Below, in pieces: positions 2,978 through 61,519 of a DNA stretch of 64,000 nt. The DNA comes from Anaerolineaceae bacterium (GTDB lineage: Bacteria; Chloroflexota; Anaerolineae; Aggregatilineales; Phototrophicaceae). The stretch lies in contig JAPOVC010000010.1 of the NCBI GenBank assembly GCA_026708325.1, forward strand, positions 34,370 through 98,369, read 5' to 3'. The translations under genes and the position numbers were made by a program. A model generated the notes under the pieces. That model did no database searches. It saw only the letters and a list, made by a program, of their open reading frames with translations, and was not told the origin of the DNA. Every line of letters begins with the position of its first letter. Position 1 is the first letter of the stretch.

Positions 2978-4371
2978 CTGAAAAACCTCTGCGGCGGGCC
3001 GGTATCGACCGCGAAGGCCAGGGCGTCGAAACTGCGTTGCAGCAGGTCCATGCGCACTGACGCGTGCGCCGGATCATCCCAGCGATTGTCGAATTCGCCC
3101 GGGTCTTCCTGCAGGTCGTAGAGTTCGCCCAGGGCATGACCGTGATAGCGCACCAGCTTGTAGCGCCGGTCGCGGTACATGGTGGCGTAGCTGCCCTCGA
3201 AGCCGCGACCATTGTCCAGCAGCGTGCGATAATACTCGCAGCGCACGAAGTCGCGGTGATGCTGCGCATCGGCCCTTCCACTCAGGATGGGCCACAGCGA
3301 GCGCCCCTGCGTCCCTTCCTGCGCTTCCAGACCGCATGCGTTAAGCAGGGTGGGGAAGATGTCGGTCAGTTCGGTCAGGGCACTGCTGCGCAGCCCGGCC
3401 TGCACCTTTCCGGGCCAGCTCCAGATGAGCGGCACGCGCACCAGTCCCTCGTAAAAGCGACAGCCCTTCATCAACAGGCCGTGGTCGCCCAGGGTCTCGC
3501 CGTGGTCGCTCGTGAACAGAATGAGCGTGTTCTCGCGTTGACCGCTGCGCTCCAGCGACCCCAGCAAGCGGCCCACCTGGTCGTCCAGTTGTTCAATCAT
3601 GCCGTAGTAAGCCGCCTGCACACCGCGCGCGTCGAATTCGTCGGGATGTCGTACGTCACTCTGAAAGTCGATCGCTGACAGCGCCCGCTGCGCCTCAAGG
3701 TCGCTCTTGCGAAAGAGCGGGCCCGGCATGTCCGCCGGATCGTAACGCTCCAGGTACTCGCGCGGCGGCGTGAAAGGCGGGTGCGGGTAGTAGTAGTTAA
3801 TGCTCAGTAGCCAGGGCTGGTCGGGCGGCCGTTCGGTCTCGATAAAGTCGATGGCGCGCGTGGTACACCAGGTCTCGCGATGCAGCTCGACGGGAAAGCC
3901 CGTCATGTCCTGGCAGAGTTCACCCAGGTCCCGCCCCTGCGCAGCGACCCAGTCCCTCCAGGCATGACCGACGGGCCAGTCGTCGCGCGGCGCGTGGCTC
4001 CACTCGAAGACGCGGTAGCCGTCGTCCACCGGCCGCGGCTCGAGGCGTTTGAAGCCTCCGGCCAGATGAAACTTGCCGACAAGGCCACAATCGTAACCGG
4101 CGTCGGCCAGCAACTTGCTGATCAGGGGCGCGCCTTCCCCCCAGACGGTGTTGCCGTTGCAGGTGCCGTGCACGGTCGAGGGATAACGACCGGTCAGGAA
4201 GCTGGCGCGACTGGGCGTGCAGATCGGGCTCTGGCAAAAGGCGTGGTCGAAGGCCGCGCCTTCGCGCACGAGGCGGTCGATGTTGGGCGTGCGGATGTGC
4301 GGGTTGCCCAGCGCGGCAATGGAGTCCCAACGCTGCTGGTCCGTGCAAATCCAGAGAATGTTCGGACGCAT
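2974..4371 (-). CDS. Sulfatase of the alkaline-phosphatase superfamily
   Basis: A 465-residue sulfatase that should hydrolyse a sulfate ester. The start RPNILWICTDQQRWD carries the metal-binding aspartate (Asp11). CTPSR at residues 51-55 is the sulfatase signature CxPSR, whose cysteine must be oxidised to formylglycine. TGRYP follows directly. Further metal ligands lie in the FTSDHGETLGDHG segment. No signal peptide is visible, so it acts in the cytoplasm or the start is misjudged; ATG 4371 fits the conserved N-terminus exactly. It is transcribed alone, convergent with the toxin gene. The nearby FGE-fold protein at 12457 lacks the cysteines needed to activate it, so maturation must depend on another enzyme. 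Confidence 0.9.
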   Translation of the reverse strand: MRPNILWICTDQQRWDSIAALGNPHIRTPNIDRLVREGAAFDHAFCQSPICTPSRASFLTGRYPSTVHGTCNGNTVWGEGAPLISKLLADAGYDCGLVGKFHLAGGFKRLEPRPVDDGYRVFEWSHAPRDDWPVGHAWRDWVAAQGRDLGELCQDMTGFPVELHRETWCTTRAIDFIETERPPDQPWLLSINYYYPHPPFTPPREYLERYDPADMPGPLFRKSDLEAQRALSAIDFQSDVRHPDEFDARGVQAAYYGMIEQLDDQVGRLLGSLERSGQRENTLILFTSDHGETLGDHGLLMKGCRFYEGLVRVPLIWSWPGKVQAGLRSSALTELTDIFPTLLNACGLEAQEGTQGRSLWPILSGRADAQHHRDFVRCEYYRTLLDNGRGFEGSYATMYRDRRYKLVRYHGHALGELYDLQEDPGEFDNRWDDPAHASVRMDLLQRSFDALAFAVDTGPPQRFFS

Positions 4372-56864: not shown

Positions 56865-58385
56865 TCATGCCTCCGTGATCCCGTAAAGGCGCGAATGACT
56901 GCTGCGGCCCAGCAGGGGCAGGCGCTCGTCGCTTTCGCTGCCATCGTAAAGCGGCCACAGGGCGTCGCGCAGGGCCGGCATCAGGATCATGTCCGCCGCG
57001 TAACGCCGCGCTACGTGGAGGATGGTGTCGCGGTCGTCATTGGGGATCATGACCGCCTTGTAACCCATCCAGTTCATGAAGAAGGGGGCATCCGTCATCA
57101 GGATGACCTGGCCGTCCCCGTTCTGGTCGCCCAGCGACTCCACGATGGCGGCGACTTTCCGCCTTTCCTCAAGTCGGTCCGCCACCAGCGTGTATTCCGA
57201 ACGCACCAGCTGGATGGCCTGCATCAGCATGAAACCGGCGATGAGGATGGCTGCAACCTGACCCATTCGCCGCGGCCGCAGGTATGCGTCCAGCGCCCAG
57301 GCGCCCGCCACCGCAAGAAAGGGGATGAGTGCCAGCCAGCTCTTTTTGAACGAGCCGCCCATTGAGTGAAAGGGAAGAATGACACTGTAAACACCATAGA
57401 GGGCCAGCAGGAAAAGCAGGGGCGTGCACAGCAGTTGCAGGCGACCGCGATGTCGCTGGCGCAGCCACCCTCCCAGGCCGAGCAGCGCCAGCAGGGGCAG
57501 GGCAAATCCCTGGGTTGTGACCATCACGTTCAGGTTGGCCAGGGAGTGAAACGCAATGTTTTTCAGGATATTGGCCGGGCCCCAGGCGAGGAAGGACTCA
57601 AGATTGTGTTCCTGACTGTAGCTAAACTGATCGTCAAAATGGGTCAGAAAAGGCGTGTTGCCCGGGCCGGCGGGCCAGAGAGTGCCCAGGTCCTGCTGGT
57701 TGCGCCACAGCCAGGGGCTGAGTACCAGCGTCCATGCCAGCGGCAGCGCCAGCAACCAGCGCCAGGGCACCGGCCTTTCGCCGAAGCGTCGCAGCAGCAA
57801 CGCCCCGATCAACAGTGCCGGTAGCAACAGGACCCCGTCCAGGCGCGTGAGCTGCGCCAGAGCGCCACAGGCGCCCGCCAGCGCCAGTAACCAGGGCCGG
57901 TCCTGCATCCCCCGATACAGGCACAGCAGCGCCATTCCGCAAAACAGGGCGTAGCTGACGGTCGTGTCCGTGCGCACGGCGCCCAGTACAAAGTCCGGCA
58001 GAAAGAGAATCAGGGCCATGGCCATCAGTTCAGCGCTGCGCGAAAGACGCGCGACGCGCGCGATCAGGCCGGTGAATGCCACCAGGGCCGTGCTGAACAC
58101 AATGTTGGGCAGCAGGGCCGGCAGCAGACCGATGCCCAGCACCCGCATCGACAGGGCCGGCCAAACGGCAGCCAGGGGCATCCAGTAATCGACGGGGTGG
58201 GTGACGGCCGTCGGTTTCTGATGGTATTGCCAGATATAGTCGACGACGAAGCCGCGTCCCTCAGCCAGGTTACGCGCAAGGTTATAATAGTGGTTGGGAT
58301 CGAACAGGCCGGGATGTTCGGCCAGCAACGCCAGGCCCACCCTCACCAGCAGGCCCGCAACAAGAAGGAGGATGTAAGGCCGCAT
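56865..58385 (-). CDS. Membrane glycosyltransferase, GT39/PMT-like
   Basis: A 506-residue multi-pass membrane enzyme of the dolichyl-phosphate-mannose/ArnT-type superfamily (about ten helices). The first extracytoplasmic loop DPNHYYNLARNLAEGRGFVVDYIWQYH holds the acidic catalytic-loop pattern typical of GT39/GT83. GGSFKKSWLALIPFLAVAGAWALDAYLRP is a later helix set, and the soluble C-terminus carries DAPFFMNWMGYKAVMIPNDD. It should add a sugar from a lipid carrier to a protein or lipid on the outer face. ATG 58385 shares a CATG palindrome with the divergent gene. Confidence 0.85.
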   Translation of the reverse strand: MRPYILLLVAGLLVRVGLALLAEHPGLFDPNHYYNLARNLAEGRGFVVDYIWQYHQKPTAVTHPVDYWMPLAAVWPALSMRVLGIGLLPALLPNIVFSTALVAFTGLIARVARLSRSAELMAMALILFLPDFVLGAVRTDTTVSYALFCGMALLCLYRGMQDRPWLLALAGACGALAQLTRLDGVLLLPALLIGALLLRRFGERPVPWRWLLALPLAWTLVLSPWLWRNQQDLGTLWPAGPGNTPFLTHFDDQFSYSQEHNLESFLAWGPANILKNIAFHSLANLNVMVTTQGFALPLLALLGLGGWLRQRHRGRLQLLCTPLLFLLALYGVYSVILPFHSMGGSFKKSWLALIPFLAVAGAWALDAYLRPRRMGQVAAILIAGFMLMQAIQLVRSEYTLVADRLEERRKVAAIVESLGDQNGDGQVILMTDAPFFMNWMGYKAVMIPNDDRDTILHVARRYAADMILMPALRDALWPLYDGSESDERLPLLGRSSHSRLYGITEA

Positions 58386-59745
58386 GCGTCGAGTGATCCC
58401 GCGTCCCTGGGCGACAGCAGGCGATGGTAACGGCCTTGCGCGGCTGCTGCCAATGCTCATTCTGCTGGCCCTGCTGTTGCGTCTGCTTGCCGTCCTGGCT
58501 GAGGATCATGCCTACGGCTACGTCAATGACGGCAGCGACGGCCCCTGGTATCTTGCGCACGGCTACGCTCTGGTCACCGGTTTCGACAACGGACGATTGT
58601 CTGAATTTGGCGACGAATACGATGAGGGCGGCGTCATCATTGTCCTGCGCAGATTGACAACGCCGCCCCTTTACCTGCTGTTCAACGGTTTGCCGCAGGC
58701 GTTCTTCCCGCGCGAGGCAGCCGTACTGCTCATTCGTGTCTTTCAGGCCCTGGCGGGCGCGATTTCCGTCTGGCTGGTCTGGCGTCTGGGGCGCGCAGTC
58801 ACAGGGAGCGAAGGCGCGGCTTTCGTCGCCGCACTGGCAATCGCTGTCTCGCCGGCTTTCATTTTCGAAGCCACCCGCGTCACCACCGAATCACTGTACA
58901 TTTTCCTGTTGCTGGCCGCCCTGGCGCATCACAGCCATCGGCGCAAACACGTCGCCATGACCGGCATACTGCTCGGCCTGGCGACACTGACGCGGGCCGT
59001 TCTGCTGCTTTTTCCCCTTGCCCTGGCCCTGCACCTTCTTCTGGTCGATGGCCGCCGCCAGGGCCTGCGCCAGGCGCTGCTTTTGCTGGCAGCCTACAGC
59101 CTCGTCGTCGGCAGCTGGACAGTCTACAGCCTGGCGCGCTGGGACCGTTTTGTCATCGCCGGCGAGGGCATGGCGGCCTTCCTGTACATCGGGGCACTGG
59201 AACAGGGTTGGCGCGGCCCGCAGGAGACGGACAGGCAACTGGTCGAGGACATCGGCGCCATTTCCGAGGAACCACAGGCGCGTCAGGCCAACTACCTGCA
59301 GGGCGCACAGGGACGAATCTCGGCTGATCCCGTCGGCTACCTGCTTCGTCGACTCGATGAATTGACGCGCGCCACCCTGCAACCCCACGGCACAGGATAC
59401 TTCGATGGCCCACCCCTGCGGCTCATGGCAATTGAGTGGTGGCGCGAAGGGCGTTCACCCTTCGAAGTGCTGCAGTGGACAACTTCAGAGGGCTTTTGGC
59501 CCCGCCTGCTGATTTACGTCCTTCACTTCGTCGGCCTGCTGGCGGGGCTGGTCGGACTCTGGTTCAGCCGCCAACGCTGGCGCCAGAGCCTGCCCCTGGT
59601 CGCGTTCATCGCCTACACCCTGTTGCTGCATCTGGCCCTGCATGCCATCCCCCGCTACCTGTTCCCGATACTGCCCTTGTGTTGGGTCTTCGCCGGCGTC
59701 GCGCTTCTTCAGGCGTATGAGAAGTTGAAGGCATTGCGGAGGTGA
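58384..59745 (+). CDS. Membrane glycosyltransferase, GT39/PMT-like
   Basis: A 453-residue multi-pass membrane protein of the same superfamily. NDGSDGPWYLAHGYALVTGF is the first outer loop, with the acidic residues expected for catalysis, and FEATRVTTESLYIFLLLAALAHHS a conserved helix turn. Several helices follow to the C-terminus. ATG 58384 overlaps the divergent start; an ATG at 58453 (MLILLALLLRLLAVL) would leave room for a promoter and is a possible true start. The 3' end overlaps the MerB-like start in a GTGA junction, linking it to the downstream operon. Confidence 0.82.
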   Translation: MRRVIPRPWATAGDGNGLARLLPMLILLALLLRLLAVLAEDHAYGYVNDGSDGPWYLAHGYALVTGFDNGRLSEFGDEYDEGGVIIVLRRLTTPPLYLLFNGLPQAFFPREAAVLLIRVFQALAGAISVWLVWRLGRAVTGSEGAAFVAALAIAVSPAFIFEATRVTTESLYIFLLLAALAHHSHRRKHVAMTGILLGLATLTRAVLLLFPLALALHLLLVDGRRQGLRQALLLLAAYSLVVGSWTVYSLARWDRFVIAGEGMAAFLYIGALEQGWRGPQETDRQLVEDIGAISEEPQARQANYLQGAQGRISADPVGYLLRRLDELTRATLQPHGTGYFDGPPLRLMAIEWWREGRSPFEVLQWTTSEGFWPRLLIYVLHFVGLLAGLVGLWFSRQRWRQSLPLVAFIAYTLLLHLALHAIPRYLFPILPLCWVFAGVALLQAYEKLKALRR

Positions 59746-60422
59746 GCCAAAAAGCGCTGGTTGACAGGGACCAGGCCACACGCCTGCATATCTACCGCTT
59801 CTGGTGCGAACAGGGACGGCCGCCCACGGTGGCCGAAAATGCCAGCGCCTGCGATCTGGTTGAAGCTGCCGCCCTGGCCGCATGGCGCCGCCTGCACGAC
59901 GCCCATCTCATCCTGCTGGAAGCCGACGGCACAGGCATCCGCATGGCCAATCCCCTGTCAGCCGTGCCCACCAGGTTTCGCGTGCAGGTCGGCCAGCACT
60001 GGCTCTTCGCCAATTGCGCCTGGGACGCGCCTGGCGTATCCGCCATGCTGGGTCAGGACGTCGTCATCGAGGCGCGCTGCAGCCCGCGCGGCGAAGGCTT
60101 GCGCTTCAGCGTGCGCGATGGCGAGTTGCTGGCGGAAGAAGCGCTGGTGCATTTTGCCCTGCCCTTCCGCCACTGGTACGACGATTTGGTGGAGACCTGA
60201 GCGACCATCCTGCTCTTCCGGTCGGAGGAGGACATTGACGCCTGGTGTGAGCAGGTTGGCCGGGTCCGCGGCGCCGTGCTGACCATGCAGCAAACCTGGG
60301 AACTGGCGCAGGCCTGGTACCACAACCGCATGTCAACGACGTTTCGGGGTCGCAGCCCCGCCGAGGCGCAGGATCTGTTCGCATCTCTCGGTTTGCGAGG
60401 TCCATTTTGGGAAATGTCATGA
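59742..60422 (+). CDS. MerB-like (organomercurial lyase family) protein, probable selenoprotein
   Basis: The frame starts with GTG 59742 (GTGA overlap with the glycosyltransferase) and is interrupted only by TGA at 60198-60200. Read through it has 226 residues, close to MerB (about 212). Two MerB catalytic residues align: NCAWDA (Cys92, Asp95) with the Cys96/Asp99 pair, and LVET-U153-ATILLFRSEED with the segment holding Cys159; the spacing of 61 residues matches 63 in MerB. After the TGA the frame continues with family-like WYHNRMSTTFRGRSPAEAQDLF and GLRGPFWEM. A SECIS-like hairpin follows the TGA, and the final stop overlaps the next start in ATGA. MerB cleaves carbon-mercury bonds, but distant members may have other roles. 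Confidence 0.85.
60198..60200 (+). other. In-frame UGA, probable selenocysteine codon (residue 153)
   Basis: This TGA sits at the position of the catalytic Cys159 of MerB. Upstream and downstream sequence are the same frame. Confidence 0.82.
60213..60230 (+). promoter_or_regulatory. Bacterial SECIS-like hairpin
   Basis: CTCTTCC (60213-60219) pairs with GGAGGAG (60224-60230), seven base pairs with one G-T, around the loop GGTC (60220-60223). The loop starts 19 nt after the UGA and carries G at its first two positions, as in known bacterial SECIS elements; the formate dehydrogenase element of Escherichia coli also has a GGUC-type loop. Confidence 0.75.
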
Positions 60423-61519
60423 CCCTGACGATCGGTCCCGCCCAACTCCGTTACCTGCGTCTGCGCGCCCAGGGGCTTGCCGCACCAGTCAGTGACCTGA
60501 AGCAGACGCTGGCCAGGGCCCTCAGCCTGCAGGCCCAGGACTACAACGCGGCCGTTCTTGGCGTTCGGGCGCGGAGTTGCGGGCTGGTTGATGAGGATGT
60601 CCGGGAGGCGTTGATCGGCGGGGAGTTGTGCTGGACCTGGCTGATGCGCGGCACGTTGCATCTCGTTAACATGGCGGACCTTCCCTGGCTGTTGCCGCTC
60701 TTCGGCCCGCAATTCATCCGCCTGACGGCCCGTCGCTATCGCGAGCTGGGCCTCGACGAAGACACGCGGCGGCGCGCGACGGCGCTGCTGCGTCAATTCC
60801 TGGCGGATGGCCCGCAAACCCGCGCCGCCCTGAAAGACATGCTGGCGGCCGAAGGATTGCCGGTGGAGGGCCAGGCCTGCCCGCACTTGCTGCGTCATGC
60901 AGCGCTGGAAGGCGCTCTGGTCTGCGTGCCCCTGCGCAGCAGCCGTCCCGAATACCGCCTGCTCGACGACAGGGCTATGGACGGGTGGCCCGGCTGCGAT
61001 GCGGCGGCGGCGATTCTGGCCCGTCGCTTCCTGCGCGCCTTCGGCCCGGCCCGCGCGGCGGACCTGGCGCGTTGGTCCGGCCTGCCGATGCGACTGGCGC
61101 GTGCGGGCCTCGACGCGCTGGCGGACGAGGTGACGGCGGTCAACGCTGCGGGCCAGGAGGCCGTGATTGCCAGGGATCAACTTCCCTGGCTGGACGACGA
61201 GCCGCGCCACAGCTTGTACCTGCTGCCGGCTTTCGATGCCCTGCTGCTGAGCCACGTGGACCGCGACCTGGTCCTGCCAGCGGAGGTCAGCCGCGCCATT
61301 CACCCGGGCGGCGGGATCATCCGCCCTTCCCTGCTGGTCGATGGCGTCGTGCGCGGTCGCTGGCAGCTCAAACGCAGCCGCCGCTCGATGACTGTCATCG
61401 TCACGCCCTTCGTCCCCATCCCGCGGGGGCGAACGCCGCAACTGGAGGCCGAAGTCGCGGACCTTGGCCGCTTCCTGGGTCGGGATGCGGTCCTGAAACT
61501 GGAGGAGGTCGCAGCATGA
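60419..61519 (+). CDS. AlkZ-like winged-helix DNA glycosylase family protein
   Basis: A 366-residue protein of the AlkZ/YcaQ (HTH_42, DUF1006) family of three tandem winged helices. The motif ALSLQAQDYNAAVLGVRAR (about residues 34-52) contains the QxQ catalytic signature found in glycosylases that unhook DNA crosslinks and alkyl adducts. Later family segments are LMRGTLHLVNMADLPWLLPLF, LPAFDALLLSHVDRD and SLLVDGVVRGRWQLKRS. ATG 60419 overlaps the MerB-like stop (ATGA) and the end overlaps tsaD in ATGA, so all three are translated in one operon. Confidence 0.88.
   Translation: MTLTIGPAQLRYLRLRAQGLAAPVSDLKQTLARALSLQAQDYNAAVLGVRARSCGLVDEDVREALIGGELCWTWLMRGTLHLVNMADLPWLLPLFGPQFIRLTARRYRELGLDEDTRRRATALLRQFLADGPQTRAALKDMLAAEGLPVEGQACPHLLRHAALEGALVCVPLRSSRPEYRLLDDRAMDGWPGCDAAAAILARRFLRAFGPARAADLARWSGLPMRLARAGLDALADEVTAVNAAGQEAVIARDQLPWLDDEPRHSLYLLPAFDALLLSHVDRDLVLPAEVSRAIHPGGGIIRPSLLVDGVVRGRWQLKRSRRSMTVIVTPFVPIPRGRTPQLEAEVADLGRFLGRDAVLKLEEVAA

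Follow-up and report, generated by a model that had tools for sequence, protein, structure and literature searches.

The stretch analysed here, which we call the window, comprises 64,000 nucleotides (nt) of contig JAPOVC010000010.1 from an Anaerolineaceae bacterium (assembly GCA_026708325.1; phylum Chloroflexota), and it contains a MerB-family gene at 59742..60422 on the forward strand, as are all features given below. The gene starts with a GTG (an uncertain start) and ends with a TGA at 60420-60422; a further UGA lies in frame at 60198..60200, beyond which the frame stays open up to the terminal TGA. Read with the internal UGA as selenocysteine (Sec), the gene encodes 226 residues, of which residues 72-193 match PF03243 with 98.6 bits (gathering cut-off 27), which places the protein in the MerB superfamily; a PF03243 search of the source genome finds this gene and no second one. 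In phmmer alignments with the PDB chains of MerB2 (5c17) and MerB (3f2g), residue 153, the predicted Sec, aligns with MerB Cys159, and Cys92 (TGC, 60015..60017) and Asp95 (GAC, 60024..60026) align with Cys96 and Asp99. All three equivalences had been claimed in a first-pass annotation of this DNA, which proposed a selenoenzyme version of a MerB-like protein; that proposal is now strongly supported by the catalytic column, the conservation of a hairpin behind the UGA and the Sec genes of the genome. Of the three contrary outcomes that it had named (a missing family match, a column without conserved Cys, a lack of Sec genes), none came about.

The window protein is predicted to adopt a MerB fold (pLDDT, the predicted local distance difference test score, 96.7), with a confident model also for the part behind the UGA. 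The fold match spans most of MerB, and about 24 residues extend past the part that can be aligned with MerB in the structure comparison. The post-UGA coding part (residues 154-226; 60201..60419) falls within the predicted fold and is under purifying selection. In all three pairs among the window gene and the genes of loci L084 and L085, nonsynonymous divergence (dN) is lower than synonymous divergence (dS) after the UGA (dN/dS of 0.060/0.188, 0.102/0.626 and 0.109/0.629, i.e., ratios of about 0.16-0.32), as it is before the UGA (residues 18-152; 0.085/0.280, 0.091/0.367 and 0.080/0.461).

We examined the catalytic columns in two sets of relatives. The phylum survey searched 400 genomes with PF03243 and matched 59 of them, giving 72 match rows; the alignment comprises 70 of them, without G207:C82 (not fetched) and G280:C12, or L083 (missed by the profile). 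The Cys159 column of these 70 rows contains TGA in 28, TGC in 29, TGT in 13 and nothing else, and the Cys96 column contains TGC in 50, TGT in 10, TGA in 7 and a gap in 3; no other aligned column has a TGA in any row. The TGA-type genes occur in 24 of the 59 MerB-bearing genomes. The second set, a scan of species genomes, used patterns derived from six aligned TGA-type proteins in which the Sec residue was masked, and took the best 80 of 200 relatives, so that distant Cys-type members would be missed. All 80 loci have TGA at the Cys159 column, TGC (68) or TGT (12) at the Cys96 column, and GAC or GAT at Asp95. Fifty-seven of them are recorded as Chloroflexota and 22 as Actinomycetota, Acidobacteriota, Verrucomicrobiota, Gemmatimonadota, Planctomycetota, Calditrichota or "Deltaproteobacteria", and relatives with the same codon and hairpin-forming sequence thus span several bacterial phyla. 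At least three of the 80 loci recur in the phylum set, and the 108 TGA rows reduce to 105 distinct ones after merging of identical stretches. The first-pass annotation had suggested a look for TGA at the same codon in related genomes; it is found within the phylum and beyond, and the column holds Cys or TGA in every row examined. One of the scanned genes (L095:5027-5640) has a second TGA at the equivalent of window Cys169, in the context W-U-Q, which may reflect either a further genuine Sec or an error of sequencing.

Behind the UGA lies a predicted bacterial selenocysteine insertion sequence (bSECIS), a hairpin at 60213..60230 with the sequence CTCTTCC-GGTC-GGAGGAG. Its seven base pairs join 60213-60219 with 60224-60230, and its loop (60220-60223; GGUC in the RNA) begins 19 nt past the UGA, just as first described. 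Loop, stem and spacing agree with the bSECIS rules in PMC13188914, where a G occupies one of the first two loop positions and the element stands 16-37 nt behind the UGA. Among relatives, the DNA directly past the UGA is nearly frozen as CTCTTCC-GGTC-GGAAGAG. The codon for Arg160 is CGG in all 84 sequences with Arg at this position, although these genes use CGC more often at other sites, and the first five pairs are standard in 102 of 102 TGA sequences with this type of hairpin (L064, L071 and L073, which have other hairpins, were left out of this test). The same 102 sequences contain double changes that preserve pairing, from C-G to T-A (in three and in four sequences), to A-T (in two) and to G-C (in one); where T-A forms the second pair (four sequences), Lys replaces Glu162. 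When 42 Cys homologues are read in the same register, 36 form zero or one pair. The best hairpin of the model type has a mean energy of -7.67 kcal/mol over the 105 TGA sequences, compared with -3.49 kcal/mol for synonymous redraws and -2.98 kcal/mol for the Cys set.

The source genome (3.3 Mb in 29 contigs, 96.5% complete) contains all the genes expected of a Sec-using organism: SelA (548.8 bits), SelB (351.8 bits), SelD (370.6 bits) and a tRNA-Sec (74 bits; anticodon TCA according to ARAGORN). The SelD gene itself has a UGA, in the context U-A-S-K, and UxxK is the motif given for Sec-containing SelD in PMC13188914. Among the MerB-bearing genomes of the phylum, 50 of 59 have SelB over the cut-off, comprising 23 of the 24 that carry a TGA-type gene and 27 of the 35 that do not; the remaining TGA-type genome, G246, has SelB only as a 123-residue fragment below the cut-off. 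The Cys-type rows nearest to the window family in the tree (L051, L052, L056, L057 and L065) come from four genomes, none of which has SelB over the cut-off. Because the frame, the three-residue alignment, the conserved UGA, the conserved hairpin-forming sequence and the Sec genes all agree, the UGA at the Cys159 column is shown, by comparison, to be a sense codon.

Taken as a whole, the protein is probably a MerB-family enzyme whose UGA at the catalytic Cys159 position is read as Sec, and in which Cys92, Asp95 and Sec153 form a likely organometal-cleaving triad. By analogy with MerB, organometal cleavage by the window protein may be expected; mercury would be the likeliest metal, and organyls of tin, lead and arsenic are also possible. 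A selenolate is ionised at neutral pH, is more reactive than a thiolate and binds mercury more tightly. SelB carrying Sec-tRNA is predicted to bind the hairpin 19 nt behind the UGA, whereupon the ribosome would insert Sec. The MerB enzyme holds mercury with Cys96 and Cys159 and involves Asp99 in the transfer of a proton (PMC4525700). The window protein would correspondingly bind the metal through both chalcogen side chains (Cys92 and Sec153), and Asp95 would protonate the carbon as it leaves; a selenolate might speed the attack and retain the metal product. Since MerA was not found in the source genome, the product may be passed to small thiols or selenols, or may stay bound.

Several observations weigh against this interpretation. 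Among the 42 Cys homologues, two have an 8-pair stem and three a 4-pair stem in the same register. A 48-nt piece of the window, folded alone, shows no excess stability over shuffled versions (z -0.10; 86 of 200 shuffles at least as good), so that single-sequence folding, tried as a proof of the SECIS, gave nothing, and the support for the hairpin is comparative. The upper stems of many relatives have energies of -4 to -6.5 kcal/mol, weaker than the -7.5 kcal/mol of the published model, which we take here as a value for the whole element (PMC13188914). The association of SelB with the TGA-type gene over the 59 genomes yields Fisher values of 0.069 without the G246 fragment and 0.016 with it; without the fragment it is only suggestive, SelB being present in most of these genomes. 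Of the genomes outside the phylum, 17 of 21 rather than all have SelB over the cut-off (the set represents 21 of the 22 loci outside Chloroflexota, since L130 comes from the same metagenome-assembled genome as L116). With respect to the chemistry, MerA is absent from the source genome at E <= 1e-100 (22 of 25 candidates scored), and no neighbour that would point to mercury or any other substrate is conserved across the family; the gene neighbourhood, which shows local synteny only, was therefore set aside as a substrate clue. In the phylum set, MerA is over the cut-off in 19 of the 59 genomes and lies at most 3 kb from a Cys-type MerB gene in 13 of these 19, and none of the 28 TGA rows has MerA within 20 kb on the same contig (some contigs are short). 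The lack of MerA in the source genome and near the TGA rows suggests that product release differs, or that mercury is not the substrate.

These last results also suit a selenoprotein of the MerB fold that is no lyase at all, in which a selenenyl-sulfide would link Cys92 to Sec153, or the two would simply hold a metal ion. Such a role would agree with the redox functions assigned to most uncharacterised selenoproteins in the review PMC13188914, and a tight Hg-Se bond might be expected to slow turnover. On the other hand, a plain binder does not need the proton donor, Asp95, which is kept in all of the scanned loci, and the match to the fold covers most of MerB; we regard a purely binding or redox role as unlikely.

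The chance that the UGA is a true stop, followed by a decayed or separately translated remnant, is negligible: 114 of the best 120 of 1975 relatives in the protein database do end at residue 152, one before the UGA, where gene finders stop, and L081, one of the 28 TGA rows, retains only the C-terminal part, but the TGA is invariant among the scanned loci and confined to the catalytic Cys columns in the phylum set, the downstream part evolves under purifying selection within the predicted fold, and the frozen hairpin shows double changes. The L081 piece (3645-3893) is possibly a decaying copy. The six full-length proteins among the best 120 have Cys at residue 153 (four) or Trp (two, P0022 and P0080), and the latter are probably cases where a gene caller translated TGA as Trp. 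An altered code, in which every UGA is read as tryptophan or cysteine, would write exactly such proteins, but the MerB-family gene and its upstream neighbour both end with TGA, the full Sec machinery is present and the phylum-set TGAs stand in Cys columns only, so we give this idea virtually no weight. Column counts, double changes in the hairpin and purifying selection reject the stop-codon remnant and the altered code, and an assembly error as well.

Apart from the single-Sec type of the window, the MerB-like relatives include genes with TGA at both catalytic Cys columns. Seven loci of the phylum survey are of this kind (L070 and L074-L079), and three further genes (L173, L174 and L175) were found in 393 genomes of the class of G338; 29 genomes of the class of G137 added none. 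The ten distinct two-TGA genes fall into two groups, and six of the ten were scanned with Pfam, all scoring above the MerB cut-off (51.3-72.1 bits compared with 27). All six genes of the FWSEEHA group carry TGCCCTT-CGTGC-AAGGGC behind the first UGA and TTCTTCTGGTCAGAAGA behind the second, so that six of the ten genes have a frozen hairpin behind each UGA. In the other group (L070 and L075-L077), a weak first hairpin (-5.8 to -6.5 kcal/mol) accompanies a second one of the common type; as L068, a TGC sister of this group, has an equally good hairpin (-7.3 kcal/mol), the first SECIS is a candidate only. A two-Sec protein would hold the metal between two selenolates, with a carboxylate proton donor next to them, and we know of no enzyme with such an active site. 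On balance we favour a large uncatalogued class of selenium-based organometal lyases, with Sec at the second metal ligand in one family and at both ligands in two MerB-like groups.

One gene on the ordinary MerB branch (L064) and the pair L071/L073 also have Sec, with other hairpins. A quick tree of 90 rows (the phylum rows of at least 140 codons plus 24 picked from the 80 scanned loci) requires at least five Sec/Cys changes, or six with the double-Sec state kept separate, a tentative count, as 31 of 87 inner branches are open; a structure alignment comprised 44 of the 80 scanned loci in addition to the window. At L064:1138-4575, the Sec-MerB gene follows an ArsR-type regulator, an ArsP-like permease (U-S-C) and a thioredoxin-like frame (U-P-S-C), apparently three selenoproteins in a row. 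The two-Sec gene at L074:257-3556 lies downstream of an energy-coupling factor (ECF) transporter (ATP-binding cassette ATPase, CbiQ and ECF substrate-specific component). A tandem of MerB-like genes occurs at L034 (G251:C30), one of them with a TAG inside the gene and with Gly for the catalytic Asp.

In the window, the gene is flanked by a glycosyltransferase-like gene (PMT_2; 58384..59745), which overlaps its start by 4 bases, and by an AlkZ-like DNA glycosylase gene (60419..61519), the start of which overlaps its stop. L084 and L085 are the only other loci where these two genes accompany the TGA-type gene; open reading frames of the neighbourhoods were picked crudely, and some chosen in the window are antisense. 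At L049, L108 and other Anaerolineales loci, the Sec-MerB gene is near genes that we take, by eye, to be HMG-CoA reductase- and HMG-CoA synthase-like.

Microbial breakdown of methylmercury is tracked via merB gene counts. One large survey checked whether MerB homologues have cysteine at positions 96 and 159, and reported MerB in seven Chloroflexi genomes (PMC8261052). Proteins cut at the Sec UGA would fail this check, and TGA-type genes would therefore escape such surveys; if they encode lyases, the mercury-demethylating potential of environmental genomes is undercounted. Even without a known function, recognition of the Sec codon corrects a widespread annotation error, and the Cys, Sec and double-Sec versions of one fold offer a natural way to test, side by side, why selenium would serve an enzyme that acts on mercury.

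The first-pass annotation had supposed the selenoprotein family to be undescribed, which holds for the family and not for the kind. A MerB-like selenoprotein, WP_238493467, appears in two reviews, as SaoL with the motif CU in PMC13188914 and as an alkylmercury lyase MerB-like protein in PMC9312934, and these entries are the only MerB-like selenoproteins that we found in the literature. By name, SaoL (one Sec) is the sole MerB-like entry among the 119 families or subfamilies of prokaryotic selenoproteins in Table 1 of PMC13188914, which has no two-Sec MerB-like entry. A term search for MerB in the main texts of PMC2398784, PMC5029168, PMC12013277 and PMC11227280 gave none. The window protein resembles the catalogued selenoproteins in its in-frame UGA at a Cys column, a hairpin with G first in the loop 16-37 nt behind it, and the Sec genes.

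SaoL (NCBIfam NF040728) was reportedly founded in a paper by Haft and Gwadz in 2023. The window protein scores 44.4 bits on this model, and nine of ten relatives score 24.6-52.9 bits, with no match for the tenth (L064). Membership in SaoL is thus ruled out, and the window protein forms a separate family of the SaoL kind, since these scores are far below the cut-off of 140. Both are MerB-like proteins with one predicted Sec, and the end of the 159-position SaoL model meets the Sec column in the relative L068, which fits a SaoL Sec at or next to the same site. They differ in that T precedes the Sec of the window protein, compared with C in the listed SaoL motif (PMC13188914), and in that the two immediate neighbours of the window gene are the glycosyltransferase-like and AlkZ-like genes. 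With MerB (PDB 3f0o; MerB2, 5c17), the window protein shares the Pfam family, the predicted fold and the equivalents of Cys96 and Asp99; it departs from the canonical Cys96/Asp99/Cys159 set by a Sec codon in place of Cys159, falls under the NCBIfam cut-offs of NF009710 (42.6 of 193 bits) and NF033555 (35 of 200 bits), extends beyond the MerB-aligned part and comes from a genome lacking MerA at the threshold given above. Because SaoL is already listed and the scores are far under its model, the kind is known, the window family is separate and widespread, and the two-Sec variants are new.
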